Positions 12,282-64,000 of a stretch of 64,000 nucleotides of DNA are shown here, piece after piece. Below the pieces are notes generated by a model. The model did not search any database and was not told the origin of the DNA. It saw only the letters and a list, made by a program, of their open reading frames with translations. The first letter of the stretch is position 1. Every line of letters starts with the position of its first letter. The DNA comes from Pseudarthrobacter sulfonivorans (GTDB lineage Bacteria; Actinomycetota; Actinomycetes; Actinomycetales; Micrococcaceae). The stretch lies in assembly GCF_014712225.1 (NCBI RefSeq), contig NZ_JACXBW010000010.1, forward strand, positions 62,001 to 126,000, read 5' to 3'. Position numbers and translations under genes: made by a program.

Positions 12282-12291
12282 TAGTTGACTA
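12282..12291. promoter_or_regulatory. Short GTTGAC palindrome before the truncated ALDH
   Basis: The sequence TAGTTGACTA is a perfect 10-bp palindrome with the same TTGAC core as the operator candidates elsewhere, but without the outer CTG/CAG. It lies about 40 bases before the preferred start at 12333. Assignment as a regulator site is tentative. Confidence 0.3.
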
Positions 12292-12332
12292 TGACTTACA
12301 TCACGGACCGAATCTGTTCATTGGAGAATGGC

Positions 12333-13010
12333 ATGCACCGTACCGCCCCCGACCACCCCAACCTCTTTATCGGAGGGAGGTGGGTCGCGACCTCGTCAAA
12401 CGATCGTTTTGAAATTGCACCTAACCACACCGGCAGCGGGACGGTCTCGTACCTGCTCCCGTCGTTCCTTGACGTCGAGGATGCGGTGGACGTCGCTCAC
12501 CTTGCGTGCCATGGAGCCGCGTGGGTTTCGGCGTCGGCGTGCGAACGGGCCGCAGTTATCACCAAATTGCGCGACACTTGCCATCGCCACAGTCTCCGAT
12601 GGGCGGGGCCGGCATTGGTGGCGGGTGACAAAGGTGCATACGTCTCGGGGGGTGCGGTCGTACGAATGCAGCCCGGGACCGCCGGGGACTGTAAGTCCCT
12701 TGCAGTCCCCGGCGGTCCCGGCGTCGTGGTAGTCGTTCCAACGCCCGGCACCCCGACGATAGATGTGGTGACGGCCATCGCCGCTGGCCTCGCGGATGGA
12801 TGTGCAGTGATCGTGAGCATGCCCGCCGAATCAGTTCTAACCGGACGGCAGATCGGCGACGTACTGGCCGAGGCGGGCGTTCCGGAAGGTCTCGTCAGCG
12901 TCTTGTGTTCTACGAGATCAGTGAGTCGGTATCTGCAGACCCACCAGGATATAGATCACGTAGTCGTCGTTGGTGCCGATACCAGCAGGCCAACAAGCTT
13001 GGTGGCATGA
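12333..13010 (+). pseudogene. Truncated aldehyde dehydrogenase (N-terminal half only)
   Basis: About 225 residues corresponding only to the coenzyme-binding N-terminal part of an aldehyde dehydrogenase: FIGGRW near 11, AAGLADGCAVIV where active enzymes have an AAGNTVV-like strand, and AGVPEGLVSVL. The catalytic Glu and Cys region and the whole C-terminal half are absent, and several conserved positions (for example the PWN loop) are lost. The start at 12333 has GGAGAATGGC upstream; an alternative TTG lies at 12285. A perfect 19-bp inverted repeat interrupts the frame at 12673-12721 without shifting it. The protein, if made, cannot be an active dehydrogenase; it is either a decayed gene or reused for another role. 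Confidence 0.7.
12673..12721. repeat. Perfect 19-bp inverted repeat inside the truncated ALDH
   Basis: Positions 12673-12691 and 12703-12721 are exact reverse complements (arm begins CCGGGACCGCC), separated by 11 bases. The stem is very GC-rich and would fold strongly in RNA. There is no following T-run. It lies where an ALDH gene should encode the conserved Rossmann/PWN region. Confidence 0.85.
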
Positions 13011-13079: not shown

Positions 13080-13295
13080 ATGGGAGTCCACATAGATTGG
13101 CTGGATTTGGTGGGCAGCCAGGTTCGGGTTCAAAAGGAAGGGCGAACTATCCGGACCGGCCGCGTCGAGGACGTAGCAGTCTCTGCGGGTCTACTCTGGC
13201 TGGAAGCCGACGGGATCGAATCGCGCGCTCTTTTTGGGGATGCACTTGGCCATAAAATTCTGCCAGTACCTGAGCCGGTCGGCAGCCAGCCATGA
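13080..13295 (+). CDS. Small hypothetical protein, SH3/PRC-barrel-like
   Basis: A 71-residue protein with alternating short beta-strand pattern (IDWLDLVGSQVRVQKEG, then RTGRVEDV, then LLWLEADG), reminiscent of small SH3-like or PRC-barrel folds found as hypothetical proteins in actinobacteria. No catalytic motif, signal peptide or membrane segment is seen. The ATG at 13080 follows GGGAAGGAAG closely; a longer start at 13035 lies within the direct repeats and is not favoured. Its function is unknown. It stands alone between the truncated ALDH and the GntR regulator. Confidence 0.6.
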   Translation: MGVHIDWLDLVGSQVRVQKEGRTIRTGRVEDVAVSAGLLWLEADGIESRALFGDALGHKILPVPEPVGSQP

Positions 13296-13500: not shown

Positions 13501-14196
13501 ATGAGGAAAATGCCGGCGAGAAGCACAGTAGCTGCGAATTCGACAGACTTGGTCGCGCGGGTCAGTCTGCGGGATCAGGCCGTCGACTTACTGCGAGGCT
13601 GGATCGTCCGCGGCGAGCTCGAGACTGGAACGAGGCTCAACGAAGTCGAGTTGGCCGCGAAGATGGGGATCAGCCGGGGCCCGCTCCGTGAGGCGATCCA
13701 GCGTCTCAGTGCAGAAGGACTGATCGATTTGCAAGGCGGCCGGGGTGCTTTTATCCGAGAGGTCAGCGGTGATGACGTCCGTCAAATGTACGAACTACGT
13801 CAGGTGTTGGAAGTGGCGGCGGTGAAGTTCGCCGCTGAGCGCATCAGTGACAATGATATTGCCAGGATCGAGGAGATGATCTCGGATATGGACCGTCGGT
13901 CCAAGGAGGATCCGCCCACGGCCCATACGGTTGATTCCGATTTCCACCTGAACATTCTTCAGCTCGCGAAGAATTCTTATTTGGAGCAGACCGGAGGTGA
14001 GCTCCAGACGCAGTTCCGGATTGCGCGCCTTCGCACGGGAGTCTCGCCGGGGCTGACGCGGGAGGCGCGCGATGAGCACCGGGCCATCCTCGTCGCCGTA
14101 GCGGCTGGGGACGTTCGAGCCGCGGGCAAGGCAATGACATTGCATCTGCGCAAGTCACTCAGCCGATTTACTGCCATGTCTGGTGATGTCGACTAG
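13501..14196 (+). CDS. GntR-family transcriptional regulator (FadR subfamily, FCD domain)
   Basis: A 231-residue regulator. The winged helix spans about 20-85 (LNEVELAAKMGISRGPLREA is the recognition region) and an all-helical FCD ligand domain spans about 95-220. Likely metal-site residues are Asp/His in DSDFHLN, His in EHRAI and His in MTLHLRK, as in metal-containing FCD proteins that bind small carboxylates. It is the only intact FCD-GntR gene in the window. Sites of the form CTGT-N2-ACAG, which match the GntR consensus, occur just upstream of it and before most catabolic operons here. I infer that it is the common regulator, probably a repressor relieved by a pathway acid. The ATG at 13501 follows GGAAGG; a second ATG at 13510 is possible. 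Confidence 0.85.
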   Translation: MRKMPARSTVAANSTDLVARVSLRDQAVDLLRGWIVRGELETGTRLNEVELAAKMGISRGPLREAIQRLSAEGLIDLQGGRGAFIREVSGDDVRQMYELRQVLEVAAVKFAAERISDNDIARIEEMISDMDRRSKEDPPTAHTVDSDFHLNILQLAKNSYLEQTGGELQTQFRIARLRTGVSPGLTREARDEHRAILVAVAAGDVRAAGKAMTLHLRKSLSRFTAMSGDVD

Positions 14197-56522: not shown

Positions 56523-57962
56523 TCAGCCGAGTTTGATCGCCTTGTAACGCAAGAACTCCTCGATGCCTTCAATGCCGTTCTCGCGCCCGAGGCCGGACTT
56601 GCGCGTGCCACCGAACGGGGCGAAGAACGAGATACCGGCAGAGTTGATCGCCACCGTGCCCGAATCGATGCGCAACGCGAGGTTCTCGGCGACGGCAGGA
56701 TCGGAGGCGAAGACCGCAGCGGAGAGGCCGTAGTCGGTGCCGTTGGCAATCTCAATGGCCTCGTCTAGGTCGTCGTAGGGCATCACGGCCAGAACGGGGC
56801 CGAAGATCTCTTCCCGGGCGATGTCCATCTCGGGAGTGACGTCCGCGAAGATGGTCGGTTCGACGTAGAAGCCCTCGTCAAGGCCAGCGGGCCGCCCGCC
56901 CCCAGCTACGAGTCGGGCGCCCTGCTCGTGAGCTACCCTGATGTAGTTGGTCACCTTCTGGTACTGCATAGCAGTACCCAGCGGACCTAGCATGCTGGTT
57001 TCCGACAACGGTGACCCGATGGTCCACTGGCCGAACGCCTCGGCCAGACCTGCGATAACTTCCTCTTGGCGTTCGCGCGGCACCAGAACCCTGGAAAGCG
57101 CTACGCAGACCTGCCCCTGGAAAGGAAGGAAGCCAGGGACTATCGCCTCAAGCAGCTTGCCCAGCGGGAAGTCGCCGACAACCAGCGCGGGTGACTTGCC
57201 GCCGAGCTCAAGCGTAACGTCAGTGATATTTGCAGCACAGGATTCCATCACGGCACGACCGGCGCCGACACTTCCCGTAAGACTCACTTTGTCAACGTCC
57301 GGGTGCGAAACCAGGGCCTGACTGACCTCGACGCCACCGGGGACCACGGTGAGCACTCCTTCCGGGAGCCCGGCGTCGGACGCCATCTGCGCAATCACGC
57401 GTGAGGTGATCTGCGATTCCACGGCCGGTTTCATCACCACCGTGCACCCCGCAAGCAGTGCCGGGATCACCTTCGTGACGAGATAAAGACTTGGTCCGTT
57501 CCAGGTGGTGATGATGACCGCGACGCCCGTAGGCTCACGCAGGACACGCACGCGTCCGTCCGGCAGCTCCCGCACCTCGTCCAGTTCGATGGCTCCGCCC
57601 AGGGCAAGGGTGTACCGCCAAATGCCCGGAACGAAGGAGTCCAGGAGCCGGGTGTGGCTCACGGTCGGACCGCTTTCTTCAGTCCACGCGGCCCCAAACT
57701 CTTCGGCACGGGCCTCGTAGGCCTGACAGAAGCGCTCGAGGACCTCGGCACGCTCAGCCATGCTCAGTCGAGGCCAGCCGGAGTGATCGAAGGCCTTGCG
57801 CGCGGCAGCAACGGCGGTATGTGCGTCTTCGACGTTCGGCAAAGGGTAGGTCTTCACCACGCGCTCTGTGGCAGGTGAGATGACGTCGTAGGTTTCCGGT
57901 CCTGAAGCCTGGATCACAGCGGTATCGAGTGCTTCGTTGACGGGCGTGGTGGTAGCGGTCAT
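56523..57962 (-). CDS. Aldehyde dehydrogenase (NAD(P)+)
   Basis: A 479-residue ALDH. VIITTWNGPS near 145, LTGSVGAGR near 225, LELGGKSPALVV near 247 (Glu) and FQGQVCVALSRV near 282 (Cys) are present. Residues and length are complete. The ATG at 57962 follows GGAGGAC; the longer start at 58010 would run into the promoter. It starts the leftward operon with the alcohol dehydrogenase and shares a divergent promoter with mftA. Confidence 0.93.
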   Translation of the reverse strand: MTATTTPVNEALDTAVIQASGPETYDVISPATERVVKTYPLPNVEDAHTAVAAARKAFDHSGWPRLSMAERAEVLERFCQAYEARAEEFGAAWTEESGPTVSHTRLLDSFVPGIWRYTLALGGAIELDEVRELPDGRVRVLREPTGVAVIITTWNGPSLYLVTKVIPALLAGCTVVMKPAVESQITSRVIAQMASDAGLPEGVLTVVPGGVEVSQALVSHPDVDKVSLTGSVGAGRAVMESCAANITDVTLELGGKSPALVVGDFPLGKLLEAIVPGFLPFQGQVCVALSRVLVPRERQEEVIAGLAEAFGQWTIGSPLSETSMLGPLGTAMQYQKVTNYIRVAHEQGARLVAGGGRPAGLDEGFYVEPTIFADVTPEMDIAREEIFGPVLAVMPYDDLDEAIEIANGTDYGLSAAVFASDPAVAENLALRIDSGTVAINSAGISFFAPFGGTRKSGLGRENGIEGIEEFLRYKAIKLG

Positions 57963-58018
57963 GCGTCCTCCGAGGTGGTTTTTCCAAGCATCTGATGTGA
58001 CATGTAACACTGTAATAT

Positions 58019-58032
58019 AATTGTCAACACTT
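58019..58032. promoter_or_regulatory. Operator candidate in the mycofactocin divergent promoter
   Basis: Read on the minus strand it is AAGTGTTGACAATT, with TTGACA facing the ALDH operon; mftA starts at 58156 on the other side. The wider segment 57994-58057 is repeated in diverged form at 34936-34999. It ties the mycofactocin genes to the same regulatory motif as the catabolic operons. Confidence 0.5.
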
Positions 58033-58155
58033 CACAATTGGCAGTATGTTGTTGGCAACGCATTCGCAAAGGAGGACATTCCGGTGTGAATTGCCCACAC
58101 TGCGGTCACACGCCGCAGCCCTCCGAGGTGCAGCTCTAGACAGGAGAAATTTTCC

Positions 58156-58266
58156 ATGGAATACATCAACCCCAGCATCGAAAAGGCCAGTGCGGACGGT
58201 GACGAGCTTGTCATTGAGGACCTTGTTGAAGACATCTCCATCGACGGTATGTGCGGCGTCTACTAG
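58156..58266 (+). CDS. mftA: Mycofactocin precursor peptide
   Basis: A 36-residue peptide ending in IDGMCGVY, the invariant tail of mycofactocin precursors; the last Val-Tyr pair is the part turned into the redox cofactor. The leader is acidic, as required for binding by the MftB chaperone. AGGAGA lies upstream of the ATG. It is below the usual gene-finder length but certain by motif and by the following mftB and mftC. Confidence 0.97.
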   Translation: MEYINPSIEKASADGDELVIEDLVEDISIDGMCGVY

Positions 58267-58282
58267 GCGCCCGGACAAGACC

Positions 58283-58582
58283 ATGAAGATGACCAGCACA
58301 GACACCATGCTCGATGAGGGGTGGGTGCTGTCACCGGCTGTCGCGTTGCGGCCGGAGCCGTTCGGGGCGATGGCTTATCATTTCGGAAACCGCAAGCTCA
58401 CCTTCCTTAAGCGACCTGATCTCGTCAGGGTGATTCGTTCCCTGGAGGACAGCCCAACAGTCCGGGACGCGCTCGTGCAGTCAGGTGTCCCCGAAGCCCA
58501 ATGGCCGGCCTATGTCGGCGCGCTGCGCAGTCTCGCGGCCACCGACATGATCCGTGCCAGCGAAGGAAAAAACAATGACTAA
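58283..58582 (+). CDS. mftB: Mycofactocin precursor-binding chaperone (RRE protein)
   Basis: A 99-residue protein with the PqqD-like winged-helix recognition fold: LSPAVALRPEPFGAMAYHF, LTFLKRPDLVRVI and VPEAQWPAYVGALRSLA. It binds the MftA leader and presents it to the radical SAM enzyme MftC. Start at 58283 is preferred; ATGs at 58289 and 58307 are possible. It overlaps mftC by eight bases. Confidence 0.94.
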   Translation: MKMTSTDTMLDEGWVLSPAVALRPEPFGAMAYHFGNRKLTFLKRPDLVRVIRSLEDSPTVRDALVQSGVPEAQWPAYVGALRSLAATDMIRASEGKNND

Positions 58583-59810
58583 CGGCATCAGCACACCCGT
58601 GGCACGCCCGACCGGAGGCTCTCTGGTGGACCAGTTCGAATTCGGCCTCGACGCCCCGATCTGCCTGACGTGGGAATTGACCTATGCCTGCAATCTGGCC
58701 TGCGTCCACTGCCTATCGTCCTCGGGCCGGAGGGACCCGCGCGAATTGACCACCGAGCAGTGCGAAGCCGTGATCGATGAACTGCAGCGCATGCAGGTCT
58801 TTTACGTCAACATCGGCGGTGGAGAGCCGACCGTCCGCCCGGATTTCTGGCATCTGCTCCAGTACGCCGTAGACCACCAGGTCGGCGTGAAATTCTCCAC
58901 CAATGGGATCCGCATCGATAAGGAAAAAGCGGCGTTCCTAGCGTCCACACCGTATGTGGATGTCCAGATATCGCTCGACGGGGCCACCGCGGAAGTCAAC
59001 GACTACGTCCGCGGTCCCGGATCCTACGACACGGCGATTCGCGCCCTCGAAAACCTCAATGAAGCGGGTTTCAAGGATGCCAAAGTTTCCGTCGTTGTGA
59101 CCCGTCAGAATGTGGGCCAGCTTGATGAATTTAAACGCATTGCCGATGACCACGGTGCCACTCTCCGGTTGACCCGGCTGCGCCCCTCCGGCCGGGGCGC
59201 CGATGTTTGGGATGAGCTGCACCCGCTGCCCGAGCAACAGCGCATCATCTATGACTGGCTGATGGCCAACGGAGACAATGTCCTGACCGGAGATTCCTTC
59301 TTCCATCTGGCGGCCTTCGGTGAAAGCCTGCCGGGCCTGAATCTGTGCGGCGCGGGCCGGGTGGTGTGCCTGATTGACCCGGTGGGCGATGTCTACGCTT
59401 GCCCGTTCGCGATCCACGAAACATTCCTGGCCGGGAATGTGCTTGACGAGGGGGGATTCAAGACGGTCTGGCAGGAATCAGAGCTGTTCACGGAACTCAG
59501 GTCCCCGCAGACGTCGGGGGCGTGCACTAAGTGTGCGTTCTTTGACGCCTGCCGCGGCGGCTGCATGGCAGCGAAGTTCTTTACGGGTCTTCCGCTGGAC
59601 GGACCGGACCCTGAATGCGTCCAGGGCTACGGGGAAACGGCTCTGGCCGGAGACCGCAACCGGCCCCAGCCCAGCCAGGACCACTCACGTTCTGCCCTCC
59701 CGAAGCGTGCACAGCCCGTCATGGTCCAACTCAGCCTGACACGTCCGGACCCCGTAGCGCCGCCCGTGTCAGCCTGCGCCGCCAGCCCGCTGTCCGGATT
59801 CCACCCGTAG
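58575..59810 (+). CDS. mftC: Mycofactocin radical SAM maturase
   Basis: A 411-residue radical SAM/SPASM enzyme. The SAM-cluster motif is CNLACVHC (Cys39, 43, 46), with GGGEPTVRP next. The SPASM region has cysteines in LCGAGRVVC, VYACPF and CTKCAFFDACRGGC. It decarboxylates the C-terminal Tyr of MftA and forms the Val-Tyr cross-link. GAAGGAAAA precedes the ATG. A Cys/Ser-Pro-Leu tail (CAASPL) is kept, as in other family members. Confidence 0.97.
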   Translation: MTNGISTPVARPTGGSLVDQFEFGLDAPICLTWELTYACNLACVHCLSSSGRRDPRELTTEQCEAVIDELQRMQVFYVNIGGGEPTVRPDFWHLLQYAVDHQVGVKFSTNGIRIDKEKAAFLASTPYVDVQISLDGATAEVNDYVRGPGSYDTAIRALENLNEAGFKDAKVSVVVTRQNVGQLDEFKRIADDHGATLRLTRLRPSGRGADVWDELHPLPEQQRIIYDWLMANGDNVLTGDSFFHLAAFGESLPGLNLCGAGRVVCLIDPVGDVYACPFAIHETFLAGNVLDEGGFKTVWQESELFTELRSPQTSGACTKCAFFDACRGGCMAAKFFTGLPLDGPDPECVQGYGETALAGDRNRPQPSQDHSRSALPKRAQPVMVQLSLTRPDPVAPPVSACAASPLSGFHP

Positions 59811-59842
59811 CGAGAGAACCATAACAGTTTCGAAAGGCAAGC

Positions 59843-61045
59843 ATGTTCAAGAATCCCTGGGCACAGAACCCCTGGTTCGAGTCAGTGGCCGAGGCGCAGC
59901 GCCGGGCCAAAAAACGCCTCCCGGCGTCCGTCTATGCGGCCCTTGTGGCAGGCTCGGAACGCGGGCTCACACTCGATGACAACACTGCCGCTTTCGGTGA
60001 ACTCGGCTTCGCACCCCATGTCGTAGGCCACCCCGCAGAGCGCGATCTGGCTACGACGGTGATGGGTCAGCATATTTCCCTCCCGGTCTTGATCTCCCCG
60101 ACAGGTGTCCAGGCCGTCCACCCCGACGGTGAAGTCGCCGTTGCCCGGGCCGCCGCCGCGAGGGGCACCATCGTCGGTCTGAGTTCCTTTGCCTCCAAAC
60201 CCGTGGAGGAAGTGACGGCCGCGAACGAGAAGACGTTCTACCAGATGTACTGGACCGGAACCCGGGAACAGATGGTCAGCCGCATGGATCGTGCGCGTGC
60301 CGCCGGTGCCAAAGGCCTGATCGTCACCACGGATTGGTCCTTCTCTATGGGTCGTGACTGGGGCAGCCCCGAGATCCCCGAGAAGGTGAACCTCAAGGCC
60401 GCCATCAGGCTTGCTCCCGAGGTGATGCTGAAGCCCCGCTGGCTGGCGTCCTTTGCCCGCAGCCTGCCCGACCTGACCGCACCCAATCTCGCCCCCGTGG
60501 GGGAGAAGGGCCCCACCTTCTTCGGCGCATACTACGAATGGATGCAGACCCCGCCGCCCACGTGGGACGACATCGAATGGATCGTCACCGAGTGGGGCGG
60601 CCCCGTCATGCTCAAGGGCGTTTGCCGCGTCGATGACGCGCTGCGCGCCGTCGACGCCGGAGTCACCGCCATCTCCGTCTCCAACCACGGCGGCAACAAC
60701 CTGGACAGCACACCGGCCCCTATCCGCGTCCTGCCGTCGATCGCCAACGCGGTAGGCGATCAGGTAGAGATCGTTCTGGACGGCGGCATCCGCCGCGGCA
60801 GTGACGTCGTCAAGGCCCTGGCACTGGGCGCCCGCGCCGTCATGATCGGTCGCGCCTACCTCTGGGGGCTCTCCGCCAATGGCCAGGCGGGTGTGGAAAA
60901 TGTCCTTGACATCCTGCGGGGGGGCATCGACTCTGCCCTGCTCGGACTCAGCGTCCCGTCAGTGCAGGATCTTCGACCAGAGCACCTGATTATTCCTCCG
61001 GGGTTTGTCCGGGAGTTGGGCGTTCCTGCCGCAGTCCGGTCGTGA
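59843..61045 (+). CDS. mftD: Mycofactocin maturation FMN dehydrogenase
   Basis: A 400-residue FMN-dependent alpha-hydroxy-acid-dehydrogenase-like protein. ISPTGVQAVHPDGEVAVARA, FYQMYWTG, LKGVCRVDDALRAVDAG, SVSNHGGNNLDSTPA and VMIGRAYLWGL form the FMN site. It oxidatively deaminates the released AHDP unit to make premycofactocin. GAAAGGC precedes the ATG. It overlaps mftE by four bases. Confidence 0.96.
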   Translation: MFKNPWAQNPWFESVAEAQRRAKKRLPASVYAALVAGSERGLTLDDNTAAFGELGFAPHVVGHPAERDLATTVMGQHISLPVLISPTGVQAVHPDGEVAVARAAAARGTIVGLSSFASKPVEEVTAANEKTFYQMYWTGTREQMVSRMDRARAAGAKGLIVTTDWSFSMGRDWGSPEIPEKVNLKAAIRLAPEVMLKPRWLASFARSLPDLTAPNLAPVGEKGPTFFGAYYEWMQTPPPTWDDIEWIVTEWGGPVMLKGVCRVDDALRAVDAGVTAISVSNHGGNNLDSTPAPIRVLPSIANAVGDQVEIVLDGGIRRGSDVVKALALGARAVMIGRAYLWGLSANGQAGVENVLDILRGGIDSALLGLSVPSVQDLRPEHLIIPPGFVRELGVPAAVRS

Positions 61046-61794
61046 CTATCAGCCAACACGGGCTGGGCGGTCTTGCCTGGCCCGATGTTCCGCATAGACC
61101 CACGGTGCTCGTACCCGTCGGGTCTACTGAACAGCACGGTCCCCACCTGCCGTTGGACACGGACGCGGCGATAGCAACCGCAGTGGCCGATGCCGTCGCT
61201 CTGAAGGTTAAAGGGCAGGTGGTCGTTGCTCCGGCGGTCAGTTACGGTTCCAGCGGGGAGCACCAGTTCTTCGCAGGCACCGTGTCCATCGGGTCGGAGG
61301 TGCTGCGCCTTTTGATCGTCGAGCTCGTGCGCTCCCTCTCCACCTGGGCGGGCCGCATCGTCCTCATTAACGCCCACGGGGGTAACGTCTCGGCTCTGTC
61401 AGAGGCGGTGCTCCAGTTGAACGCAGAGCGGCACAACGTCGCGTGGTTGCCATGTCTGGTCCCGGGCGCTGACCTGCATGCCGGCAGGACGGAGACTTCC
61501 CTGATGCTTCACCTCAACCCGGCTGCGGTCCGACTGGAACGCTCCGTAGCGGGCGATCTGCGTCCCCTCGATGAACTGTTGCCGGAGCTGCTTACAGGGG
61601 GTGTCGCCGCAGTCTCATCCTCCGGCGTTCTGGGCGACCCAAGCGGGGCAAATGCTTCCGAGGGCGTCCGATTATTTGACCTGATGGTCGATGACGTTGC
61701 ACGCCGAATTGCTGGGGCCGCGCTTGGCCGGAACGGAATGCTTGCCGTCAATGAGCGGCAGGCAATGGGTTGGACTCCGATCAAGCCGCGTTGA
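61042..61794 (+). CDS. mftE: Mycofactocin creatininase-family peptidase
   Basis: A 250-residue creatininase-fold metallopeptidase. LVPVGSTEQHGPHLPLDTDA holds metal ligands (seen here as GSTEQHGPHLPLDT), with NAHGGNVSAL near 112 and GADLHAGRTETSLML near 143. It cuts the matured C-terminal unit from MftA. The GTG start overlaps the mftD stop (gtga). The next coupled gene starts 66 bases further on. Confidence 0.96.
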   Translation: MTISQHGLGGLAWPDVPHRPTVLVPVGSTEQHGPHLPLDTDAAIATAVADAVALKVKGQVVVAPAVSYGSSGEHQFFAGTVSIGSEVLRLLIVELVRSLSTWAGRIVLINAHGGNVSALSEAVLQLNAERHNVAWLPCLVPGADLHAGRTETSLMLHLNPAAVRLERSVAGDLRPLDELLPELLTGGVAAVSSSGVLGDPSGANASEGVRLFDLMVDDVARRIAGAALGRNGMLAVNERQAMGWTPIKPR

Positions 61795-61859
61795 AGCCTC
61801 CCTTGACTGCTTTGCCTCGAACCATGTTATGCAGCTGGCTTCCGAAGAAGGGAATCCCC

Positions 61860-62180
61860 GTGTCGACTGAGTGGATGACGACCGAGCTCATGCCGCCGGA
61901 GAGCCCAGATTGGGCGACGCTTTCCCGGAAATTCGTGGAAGTTCGCCGCGGTAGCGAGATTTACCGCCATGGTCAGGTGGACGACACGATGGCTGACGGG
62001 TCAGGCCTGTGGATGGCAGCAGATGGCATCCTGGGCAGGGAACTCATCTGGCGGGATCAAGGATTCACAGTGGGCAAACTGCATGGGCCCGCTGATGGCG
62101 TCCAAGGTCAGCTGGACGCCGGATTGAGTTACGTACCCGGAGACCAGGAACAGTCTCGTATCGCAGGTGACCGATCGTGA
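61860..62180 (+). CDS. Unnamed small protein in the mycofactocin operon
   Basis: A 106-residue protein between mftE and mftF. GTG at 61860 follows GAAGAAGGGAA, and its TGA overlaps the mftF GTG (gtga), so translation of mftF is coupled to it. The sequence is acidic and soluble, without cysteine, signal peptide or membrane segment. It has a VRRGSEIYRHGQVDDTM segment and ends GDQEQSRIAGDRS. I do not recognise a family. Its position suggests a role in mycofactocin glycosylation or handling; nothing in the sequence shows what. Confidence 0.7.
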   Translation: MSTEWMTTELMPPESPDWATLSRKFVEVRRGSEIYRHGQVDDTMADGSGLWMAADGILGRELIWRDQGFTVGKLHGPADGVQGQLDAGLSYVPGDQEQSRIAGDRS

Positions 62181-63589
62181 CTGTTCAGCGATCTCAACTT
62201 CCCAAGGGTTTCACGGTAAGACTAAACCGACGAGTGAAAATTGCTGGCAGGGGAAGGGAACTCGTCGGAGGTTCCCCCACGCGGGTTCTTTACATCACCG
62301 AACGTGCCAGCGGGATGATTCTGGACAGGACAGCAGTCGTCTCAGACACTCCTACGGGTTTGTTGGTGGACAGGCTATTGGAGAGCGGGATGGCCGATCC
62401 CGTGCTCGAATCGCTGCCTGACCTTGACCCTGCTTCCGTAACAGTCGTCGTCCCCGCCTTCGGGCGCCCTCTCGCCCTGGCCAGGTTGCTGACGAGCATC
62501 GGAAAACAGCACAGGGTTATCGTCGTCGACGACTGCTCCCCGGACCCTGCGGCAATCCGGGCAGTTGTAGAAAAGCACGACGCACACCTGGTGCGCCTCC
62601 CGTCCAACAGTGGCCCGGCCCAGGCCCGCAACGAGGGCCTCAAGCACGTAACTACGCCCTACGTGGCCTTCGCCGATTCCGACATTGTGCTCCACCCGGA
62701 CACCATTTCGCTCCTCCTGAAACACTTTCATGACCAGAGCGTGGCTCTGGCCGGCCCCCGGGTCCTTGGCTGGGACGACGGAAACGGCATGAACTGGATC
62801 GAGCGATACGAAGAGGCAAGATCATCGCTGGATCTGGGTATCTTCCCAGCAACAGTCCGGCCCCGCTCCCCGGTTTCGTGGCTTCCAGGTGCATTTCTCT
62901 TGGCCCGAGCCAACGCACTGGGTGAAGGATTCACCTCCGGCAGCCGTGTAGGAGAGGACGTCGACCTCGTATGGCGCCTGGTCGAACAGGGATGGCGGGT
63001 CCGCTTCGAGCCCGAGGCAAAAGTGTGGCACGAGCACCGGCAAACCATAAGAGAATGGCTGTCCCGGAAAGCGTTCTACGGAACGTCGGCTCACGCCCTC
63101 TCCCTCCGGCACCCGGAGGCAATCGCGCCAGCCGTCTTCGCACCCTGGTCTGTCGCCGTCGTCGCCGCACTCCTGTGCCAGCGCACGTGGTCCATTCCGG
63201 CAGCAGGAGCGATTTCTGCCTTTGCCGCGTGGCAGATCTCCAAGAAACTCGGCCGCAGCACGCATCCGGTCCGGATTGCTGTCAGTCTGACTGCGCGTGG
63301 TGCACTCGCGGCACAAACGCAGACCATAGCCCTCTTTGTCCGCCACTGGTGGCCCCTGGCCATCGCGGGGAGCATCTTCTCCCGCAGGTTACGCCGGGCC
63401 CTCGTCGTGGCTTGCATCGTGGACGCAGTGTGGGAGTACCGCCGCACCCGTCCCCAACTCGATCTTCTTCGGTTTGCCCTCGCACGGCGCCTGGACGATC
63501 TGGCATACGGTACCGGCGTCTGGTCCAGCGCGCTGAGAGGCCGATCTCTCCGTTGCCTGCTGCCCGACGTCCGGAAAAATCCCAACTGA
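62177..63589 (+). CDS. mftF: Mycofactocin system glycosyltransferase
   Basis: A 470-residue GT2-family transferase. The N-terminal part is specific to MftF (FTVRLNRRVKIAGRGRE and RVLYITERASGM). The GT-A core has VVVPAFGRP, VVDDCSPD and FADSDIVLHP (DxD), and the WLPGAFLLAR acceptor region. Two or three hydrophobic C-terminal segments suggest membrane association. It adds a beta-1,4-glucose chain to mycofactocin. GTG start overlaps the preceding small gene. Confidence 0.94.
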   Translation: MTVQRSQLPKGFTVRLNRRVKIAGRGRELVGGSPTRVLYITERASGMILDRTAVVSDTPTGLLVDRLLESGMADPVLESLPDLDPASVTVVVPAFGRPLALARLLTSIGKQHRVIVVDDCSPDPAAIRAVVEKHDAHLVRLPSNSGPAQARNEGLKHVTTPYVAFADSDIVLHPDTISLLLKHFHDQSVALAGPRVLGWDDGNGMNWIERYEEARSSLDLGIFPATVRPRSPVSWLPGAFLLARANALGEGFTSGSRVGEDVDLVWRLVEQGWRVRFEPEAKVWHEHRQTIREWLSRKAFYGTSAHALSLRHPEAIAPAVFAPWSVAVVAALLCQRTWSIPAAGAISAFAAWQISKKLGRSTHPVRIAVSLTARGALAAQTQTIALFVRHWWPLAIAGSIFSRRLRRALVVACIVDAVWEYRRTRPQLDLLRFALARRLDDLAYGTGVWSSALRGRSLRCLLPDVRKNPN

Positions 63590-63744
63590 GCCGAATCTGC
63601 TCGTGGTCAAGCGATCATGTGCTACGGCAAGACCGATAGCCGACCTGGGAGTTCGTACCAGGGCACTGCCAAACTGTCGCAACTAACACCAGGTGTAAAC
63701 AGGATGCGCGATGAGCTCAATTGGACAGGGATAAGGGTGCCGAA
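63590..63744. other. Spacer between mftF and mftG
   Basis: There is no gene in these 155 bases. A loose inverted motif (AACACCAGGTGTAAACA, about 63683-63699) may be a binding site before mftG. Confidence 0.4.
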
Positions 63745-64000
63745 GTGAGATATGACGTCCTCGTGGTGGGAGCCGGCGCCGCTGGAGCTCCCTTGGCGGC
63801 GAGATTAAGTGAAGACCCGCGACGGACCGTGCTGCTGCTCGAAGCGGGCCCAGTCCCAGCGAACACGGAGGACTTCCCGCAGGAGCTGCTCAACGCCGGG
63901 ACCGTGCAAGGCGCCATGCCGGGTCATCCCCACAACTGGTCACTTATGGGATATCTGACGCCAGACCTGCCCTACTCCATAGCCCGGGGCCGCATTCTGG
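63745..64000 (+). CDS. mftG: Mycofactocin GMC-family dehydrogenase (partial)
   Basis: Only the first 85 codons lie in the window. YDVLVVGAGAAGAPLAARLSE is the FAD-binding start of GMC oxidoreductases (seen here as VLVVGAGAAGAPLAARL), LLLEAGP and NWSLMGYLTP follow. MftG passes electrons from reduced mycofactocin to the respiratory chain. GTG at 63745 follows AAGGG. Identification rests on the GMC signature and on position after mftF. Confidence 0.88.
   Translation, partial: MRYDVLVVGAGAAGAPLAARLSEDPRRTVLLLEAGPVPANTEDFPQELLNAGTVQGAMPGHPHNWSLMGYLTPDLPYSIARGRIL

Follow-up and report, generated by a model that had tools for sequence, protein, structure and literature searches.

The mycofactocin (mft) operon near the end of the window, as we call the whole 64,000-nucleotide stretch of Pseudarthrobacter sulfonivorans DNA analysed here, holds a short reading frame (hereafter gene X) between mftE and mftF. 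The locus raises the question of whether X is a gene at all and, if so, whether it provides a general mycofactocin function or is an addition peculiar to this lineage. The excerpts of three papers on the system (PMC3023750, PMC11778925 and PMC7491314) name MftA to MftG, the TetR-like MftR and the methyltransferase MftM, the last of these given in PMC11778925 among the named mycofactocin functions, and the same excerpts say nothing of any small gene in the mftE-mftF interval. Neither the term Arthrobacter nor the stem Micrococc- occurs in the main texts of PMC11778925 and PMC3023750, and no paper on gene X or its protein family was recognised among the open-licence papers listed, a scope outside which most subscription papers fall. 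We consider X to be best explained, with a probability of about 0.6, as a lineage-specific recruit to the mftE-mftF junction of Arthrobacter that was drawn from a family of small-barrel proteins. The joint statement that X codes for a protein, belongs to this family and is optional for mycofactocin is highly probable.

Gene X in the mycofactocin operon

The cluster lies entirely on the forward strand in the order mftA-B-C-D-E-X-F-G, and the products of mftA to mftF all score above their NCBIfam cut-offs. It begins with the mftA precursor gene (58156-58266; TIGR03969, 39.5 bits against a cut-off of 25, and Pfam MftA), followed by mftB (58307-58582, start approximate; TIGR03967, 104.8 bits against 33, scored on the open frame 58046-58582), mftC (58554-59810; TIGR03962, 644.5 bits against 265), mftD (59843-61045; TIGR03966, 693.9 bits against 470.85), mftE as the 5' neighbour of X (61042-61794; TIGR03964, 318.5 bits against 172) and mftF as its 3' neighbour (62177-63589; TIGR03965, 409.6 bits against 280). 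The 5' part of mftG, whose start is uncertain, runs into the window edge (63721-64000), and matches TIGR03970 over 93 residues at E 3.5e-14 (52.6 bits, below the cut-off of 387.45). Gene X itself occupies 61860-62180 of the forward strand, where 106 codons with a GTG start (61860-62177) are closed by a TGA at 62178-62180, 65 nt downstream of mftE. A good ribosome-binding site, GAAGAAGGGA, is read 5' of its start (61844-61853, forward strand), and the four bases GTGA at 62177-62180 both close X and open mftF on that strand.

Of 206 genus genomes, eight, the window's own counted, have an mftF match at E 1e-50 or better, and in seven of these mftE and mftF are found together. X with an intact core is present in five of the seven loci, in the same slot and on the same strand (the window, G252, G376, G240 and G332), so that the window gene has orthologues in four other congener loci. 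Identity to the window protein falls from 71% over X in Pseudarthrobacter siccitolerans and 62% in Arthrobacter sp. OV608 to 52% over residues 12-74 in Arthrobacter pascens and 44% over residues 18-94 in G332, the three named strains having loci with match figures equal to those of three of the numbered ones; the mftA precursor is also variable, its identity to that of the window ranging over 64-73% among the congener loci. An AAGG stands before the start of the reading frame in six of the seven slots, the exception being A. pascens, where the likely X start overlaps the mftE stop, and the 4-nt overlap with mftF (GTGA or ATGA) is present in all seven. A 1-nt indel just 5' of the GTG (CCCC versus CCC) separates congener loci while the X start itself recurs, and any longer X reading frame would thus be broken.

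The two other loci carry shortened frames in the slot. In G323 the frame runs to 52 codons and retains the barrel's N-terminal half, and G382 has one of 45 codons with the same kind of start (MSTD), which shuffling relates to the G323 version (P 0.0045) and scores at P 0.28-0.54 against three others. The domain profile described below matches six of the seven Arthrobacter mft loci and misses G382, and descent of the G382 frame from X, which would be argued mainly from position and start context, is weakly supported. Both genomes keep mftA-F and the start of mftG, and two shortenings that remain in frame would be expected by chance once in nine. The eighth genome with an mftF match, G301, has a relic of the operon (L150, 4569-5928) composed of an mftF that lacks approximately its first 151 residues and of the start of mftG; no mftA-E was found within the 8 kb fetched around this truncated mftF.

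Database searches for X and its surroundings were empty or uninformative. No Pfam family was matched by X at E 1, and its sole NCBIfam match, at E 0.04 and 12.4 bits where the cut-off is 537, was to a model of unrelated FAD-binding proteins. Rfam yielded no element at gathering scores over 57900-64000, promoter and terminator scans gave counts not above those of shuffled sequence and placed no site inside X, and phage records contained no match. One viral match from the X scan (L073) was discarded as chance, being antisense to a large open frame that by eye encodes a DNA polymerase. The first-pass annotation had argued for a real gene from the ribosome-binding site, the gtga overlap with mftF and the position within the mycofactocin operon, and had recognised no named Mft family in its product; each of these observations has held up, and the recurrence of the gene and its start context in the congener loci now adds to them.

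X is a coding gene, and the core of its protein is under purifying selection. For the pairs window-P. siccitolerans, window-OV608 and P. siccitolerans-OV608 the dN/dS of X is 0.58, 0.67 and 0.36, compared with 0.24, 0.23 and 0.39 for mftE and 0.16, 0.14 and 0.23 for mftF, with homologues of X present in other mft loci of the genus at ratios that are not near 1. Full-length X falls below neutral simulation at P<0.05 in one of these three pairs (P 0.111, 0.190 and 0.010, the last for P. siccitolerans-OV608). The 59-codon core has a pN/pS of 0.25-0.66 across the five orthologues and lies below neutral simulation (P<0.05) in nine of ten pairs, which have sequences in common and are not independent; the exception is window versus P. 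siccitolerans (P=0.167), and the constraint holds in pairs with 0.6-0.7 synonymous differences per site. For the C-terminal tail (62085-62177, forward strand), which is weakly conserved, dN/dS in the three close pairs is 0.42, 1.36 and 0.92. Taken together, the core pairs below neutral and the high ratios of the tail indicate that the core is constrained and the tail hardly so, and the protein as a whole evolves faster than MftE or MftF.

Such rapid evolution might suggest that X is a decaying hitchhiker, one copy of a dispersed paralogue that ended up in the operon and is on its way to being lost. Its dN/dS exceeds that of mftF in all three close pairs and that of mftE in two, the tail reaches 0.92 and 1.36 in two of the three, and two shortened versions exist. 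However, the third close pair has X at 0.36, not above mftE, the core is constrained even where synonymous sites differ by 0.6-0.7 per site, and five intact copies persist with start and overlap retained, and we therefore regard decay as quite unlikely.

The mftE-mftF junction as a variable slot

To place X among other mycofactocin loci we examined 74 from outside the genus, ten from the family search (eight over the family cut-off and two just under it) and 64 from a class sample of 296 genomes, 83 of them with a match at E 1e-75; the 64 were taken from the 82 matching genomes other than the window's own, one locus per genome, with two duplicates dropped. X was found by tblastn in none of the 74, and the domain profile likewise had no match in the class and family loci. 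Among the mft loci examined, X is confined to Arthrobacter. The search for homologues co-occurring with mftF that the first-pass annotation had proposed thus produced them beside mftF within the genus, and none at the 74 loci outside it.

The junction takes other forms in these loci. An mftE on the same strand as mftF is present in 55 of the 74. Between its stop and the projected start of mftF lie at most 97 nt in 38 of the 55, and the two often overlap. Another 16 of the 55 carry a reading frame of 198-294 codons between the two genes. The SDR scan covered ten of these 16 frames, nine of which exceed the cut-off of TIGR04504, the mycofactocin-coupled SDR (short of a match at the 1e-70 limit for the tenth). 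This SDR thus occupies the slot equivalent to that of X in other families (loci L112, L116, L121, L125, L133, L135, L136, L138 and L140). A 238-nt gap remains in one locus of the 55, L123 (G491), and by eye resembles a repeat of roughly 110 nt. For the 19 loci in which no same-strand mftE was found, the approximately 0.8-1.6 kb 5' of mftF are free of domain matches. Since junctions may be direct, SDR-holding or X-holding, we view the mftE-mftF junction as a variable slot, and this is what the survey means for mycofactocin: direct overlap, an SDR gene or a small barrel may stand in the same place, with Arthrobacter providing natural shortened versions of the inserted gene for comparison.

The suggestion that X might be an undescribed accessory factor therefore fares poorly when it is taken to mean a general mycofactocin factor. 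X was found at none of the 74 non-genus loci, its core has been lost in two of seven congener loci that keep mftA-F, and the domain to which it belongs occurs in 206 of 206 genus genomes, whereas only eight of the 206 have an mftF match. X is probably not a missing general factor but a local addition to the operon.

How this addition might act is less certain. Deletion of mftF leads to loss of all glycosylated mycofactocin forms, according to the excerpt of PMC7491314, so the output of mftF matters, and a relay of translation to it would matter as well. The X reading frame may pass ribosomes from mftE to mftF, replacing the direct or near-direct junction common in other genera, a role that we hold to be possible at somewhat less than even odds. 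The retention of the overlap in the shortened versions speaks for such a cis role of the reading frame. A stricter version, in which X acts only in cis as a translational relay and its protein is a by-product, would account for the 52- and 45-codon frames keeping ribosome-binding site, start and mftF overlap, and would agree with the overlapping or closely spaced mftE and projected mftF starts of 38 of the 55 non-genus loci. A pure relay has no need, however, of the amino-acid-level selection on the core seen in nine of ten pairs, and a purine-rich stretch precedes several of the mftF starts themselves. Where the core is intact, its constraint favours a role of the protein and counts against a purely cis role, which is improbable.

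A family of predicted small barrels

A domain profile was built from an alignment of 37 rows (A1) that includes X and its orthologues, and it has conserved W, V, R and LW positions to which X conforms. X and its four orthologues match it at E 1.3e-21 or better in the loci searched, X scoring 5.0e-25 in its own genome. The 56-residue core of X corresponds to a domain matched at E 1e-5 in every one of the 206 genus genomes, with between 1 and at least 21 matches per genome among the matches listed. Ten places were found at E 0.01 in the window's own genome, X included, the other nine being away from mft. Outside the genus the domain becomes scarce: 3 of 296 genomes in the class sample carry it, all of X's genus, and 11 of 248 in the order sample, all of X's family (Micrococcaceae). 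Its occurrence outside the genus is patchy, eight of the 19 family members listed in the order sample being without a match. A search with the single X sequence at E 0.01, which found paralogues independently of the profile, had matches in 47 of 197 family genomes.

The family is unnamed in Pfam, NCBIfam and PHROGs for the members tried. In Pfam searches over the 37 domains KOW, GpP-like, biotin-ligase C-terminal and other families were matched here and there, never better than E 0.0045; that value belongs to KOW6, which matched three of the 37 members but not X, and the other families were similarly weak; PHROGs gave no match for three members tried, and the profile found no significant PDB sequence (best E 0.084). 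The family may also be undercounted in annotation. On the plasmids AP024645.1, CP000476.1 and NZ_CP053546.1 domain reading frames have no listed gene at the match, although the PLSDB tables are incomplete, and on CP017422.1 the listed CDS is on the strand opposite to the domain match.

Structure prediction places the core of X (residues 18-75; 61911-62084, forward strand) in a small all-beta fold. The AlphaFold2 model of X, computed with four relatives as input, has five strands (residues 25-30, 33-43, 49-54, 60-64 and 69-75), the last of them preceded by a short helix. Block pLDDT is 80-91 for residues 21-70 and 62 in 71-80, the tail is of low confidence (below 50 over most of residues 82-106), and the overall values are pLDDT 69.0 and pTM 0.54. 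A paralogue within the window (13080-13292, forward strand; profile E about 1e-19) gave a model with the same predicted strand order (pLDDT 81.1, and 74-90 for residues 11-60), computed from the same five sequences and hence with an alignment not independent of that of X. This paralogue lies behind a truncated aldehyde dehydrogenase gene (12285-13010, Pfam Aldedh) and ahead of a gene that is GntR-like by eye (13501-14196). Fold neighbours of X are the Spt5 KOW, Tudor, Sm/Hfq and BirA C-terminal barrels with Z at most 6.7, and Foldseek returned no match at E 0.001 or better (E at least 0.07). On these models X likely adopts the SH3-like barrel superfold, and because the fold matches are to generic barrels only, we assign it to no functional family. 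The ideas that X might be an RRE or a second MftB-like chaperone were dropped, the model being an all-beta barrel with no winged helix.

Given the Sm, Hfq-like and KOW barrels among the best fold neighbours, one might picture a family of RNA-binding proteins that autoregulate the mRNA of their operons, and its genes are positioned behind the genes they would regulate. The fold matches are nevertheless weak and generic, X is acidic (pI 4.61), and by net charge 23 of the 37 domains are negative and two neutral, though 12 are positive. Acidic X and the mostly negative domains lean towards contacts with proteins or small molecules over RNA, and such RNA-binding autoregulation is in our opinion very unlikely.

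A tree of the 37 domains unites the five X sequences and one paralogue in a clade with support 97/94. Within it a branch supported at 97/88 pairs the G332 X with that non-mft paralogue (few columns; bootstrap unsettled), which suggests that X came from one corner of the family, the tree not establishing a strict single origin. The X sequences have RELIW and DGSGLW residues in common that most paralogues lack. These X-specific residues, together with the one supported clade and its single intruding paralogue, the purifying selection on the core, and the slot beside mftF with its 4-nt overlap in all five intact-core loci, are what might be expected of a dedicated, Arthrobacter-only mycofactocin accessory, for example an MftF partner that determines how long the glycan grows or serves to dock MftF onto MftE. 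Against such an accessory are its absence from the 74 other mft loci, the loss of the core in two of seven loci with mftA-F, a dN above those of mftE and mftF in all pairs compared, and the nine further domain matches in its own genome away from mft; we judge it unlikely.

The genomic surroundings of the paralogues were examined at 63 domain places in 62 loci, leaving out the X loci and the weaker own-genome matches L080-L083; gene calls in this set are heuristic, and loci were picked by match score with possible bias. The domain shares its strand with the nearest 5' gene in 54 of 61 places and with the nearest 3' gene in 33 of 63, and after merging by related neighbours the figures become 30 of 34 upstream versus 20 of 35 downstream (Fisher P 0.006). 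X, which follows the same-strand mftE, behaves towards its upstream gene like most paralogues. Thirty of the 31 clusters of same-strand upstream genes were scanned in Pfam, giving 19 metabolic enzymes, four transporters or binding proteins, two regulators, two mobile-element proteins, two others and one unmatched. The enzymes include citrate synthase, acyl-CoA dehydrogenases, zinc alcohol dehydrogenases, alanine dehydrogenase, 3-hydroxyacyl-CoA dehydrogenase, transhydrogenase, PrpD-like and lactate-utilisation LUD proteins, an aminotransferase, an aromatic amino acid lyase and a truncated aldehyde dehydrogenase. By eye the remaining cluster is acyl-CoA-synthetase-like; one possible start of the domain gene overlaps it by 4 nt, and it is right behind this gene that the paralogue of the X clade sits. 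In three plasmid records the match follows same-strand genes, those of the methylcitrate cycle in two records and a single lactate-utilisation gene in the third. Any genome is rich in metabolic genes and the neighbour counts come with no matched control, so the kind of neighbour is only suggestive, and the strand asymmetry is the firmer result. Adjoining two barrel paralogues of the window's own genome is a second kind of small reading frame (L158, 3655-3891, reverse strand, on contig C14; L160, 3280-3537, forward strand, on contig C57) of 78-85 residues with an ILVTR(H)-like stretch in common by eye, which may represent a companion family of the barrels.

Proposed recruitment into the operon and comparison with known systems

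The recruitment that we favour would have begun in an ancestor of these Arthrobacter strains, when a small-barrel gene of the kind usually found behind metabolic genes joined the mft operon. Besides any relay of ribosomes, its product would have a putative activity in modulating the enzymes of the mft operon, as the paralogues would modulate theirs, and X would be optional for the making of mycofactocin. The idea of a small acidic protein that serves the enzymes of its own operon as adaptor or modulator is a tentative proposal and rather doubtful. Since paralogues are rarely coupled to a downstream gene, and X lies within an operon and overlaps mftF, a special role of X is possible. A bolder generalisation would see in Arthrobacter and its near relatives a genus-wide system of SH3-like barrels, as many as 21 or more in a genome, each encoded within or last in a catabolic or redox operon whose enzymes it acts on, with X as the mycofactocin copy tied in by its overlap with mftF; we think that this is unlikely to be true in full.

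As a mycofactocin component X is ordinary, and its greater interest is that it leads to an undescribed family of small barrels. The larger point is indeed the family, in that all genus genomes searched carry these overlooked small genes beside metabolic genes, and the function of one or two members would inform on the whole set.

Compared with the mycofactocin cluster as defined by its NCBIfam families (TIGR03969, 03967, 03962, 03966, 03964, 03965 and 03970), X lies inside the mftA-G order, yet it matches none of these families and is absent from the 74 non-genus loci. With the SH3-like small barrels (the KOW domains of Spt5, Tudor, Sm/LSm/Hfq and the BirA C-terminal domain) the models of X and its paralogue share five strands and the short helix before the last, whereas in sequence the X family matches none of their Pfam or PDB members significantly and its structural scores are generic. 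Finally, the mycofactocin-coupled SDR (TIGR04504 / NF040491) of other actinobacteria occupies the same mftE-mftF junction as X, but belongs to a dehydrogenase family to which X, a small barrel, is unrelated.
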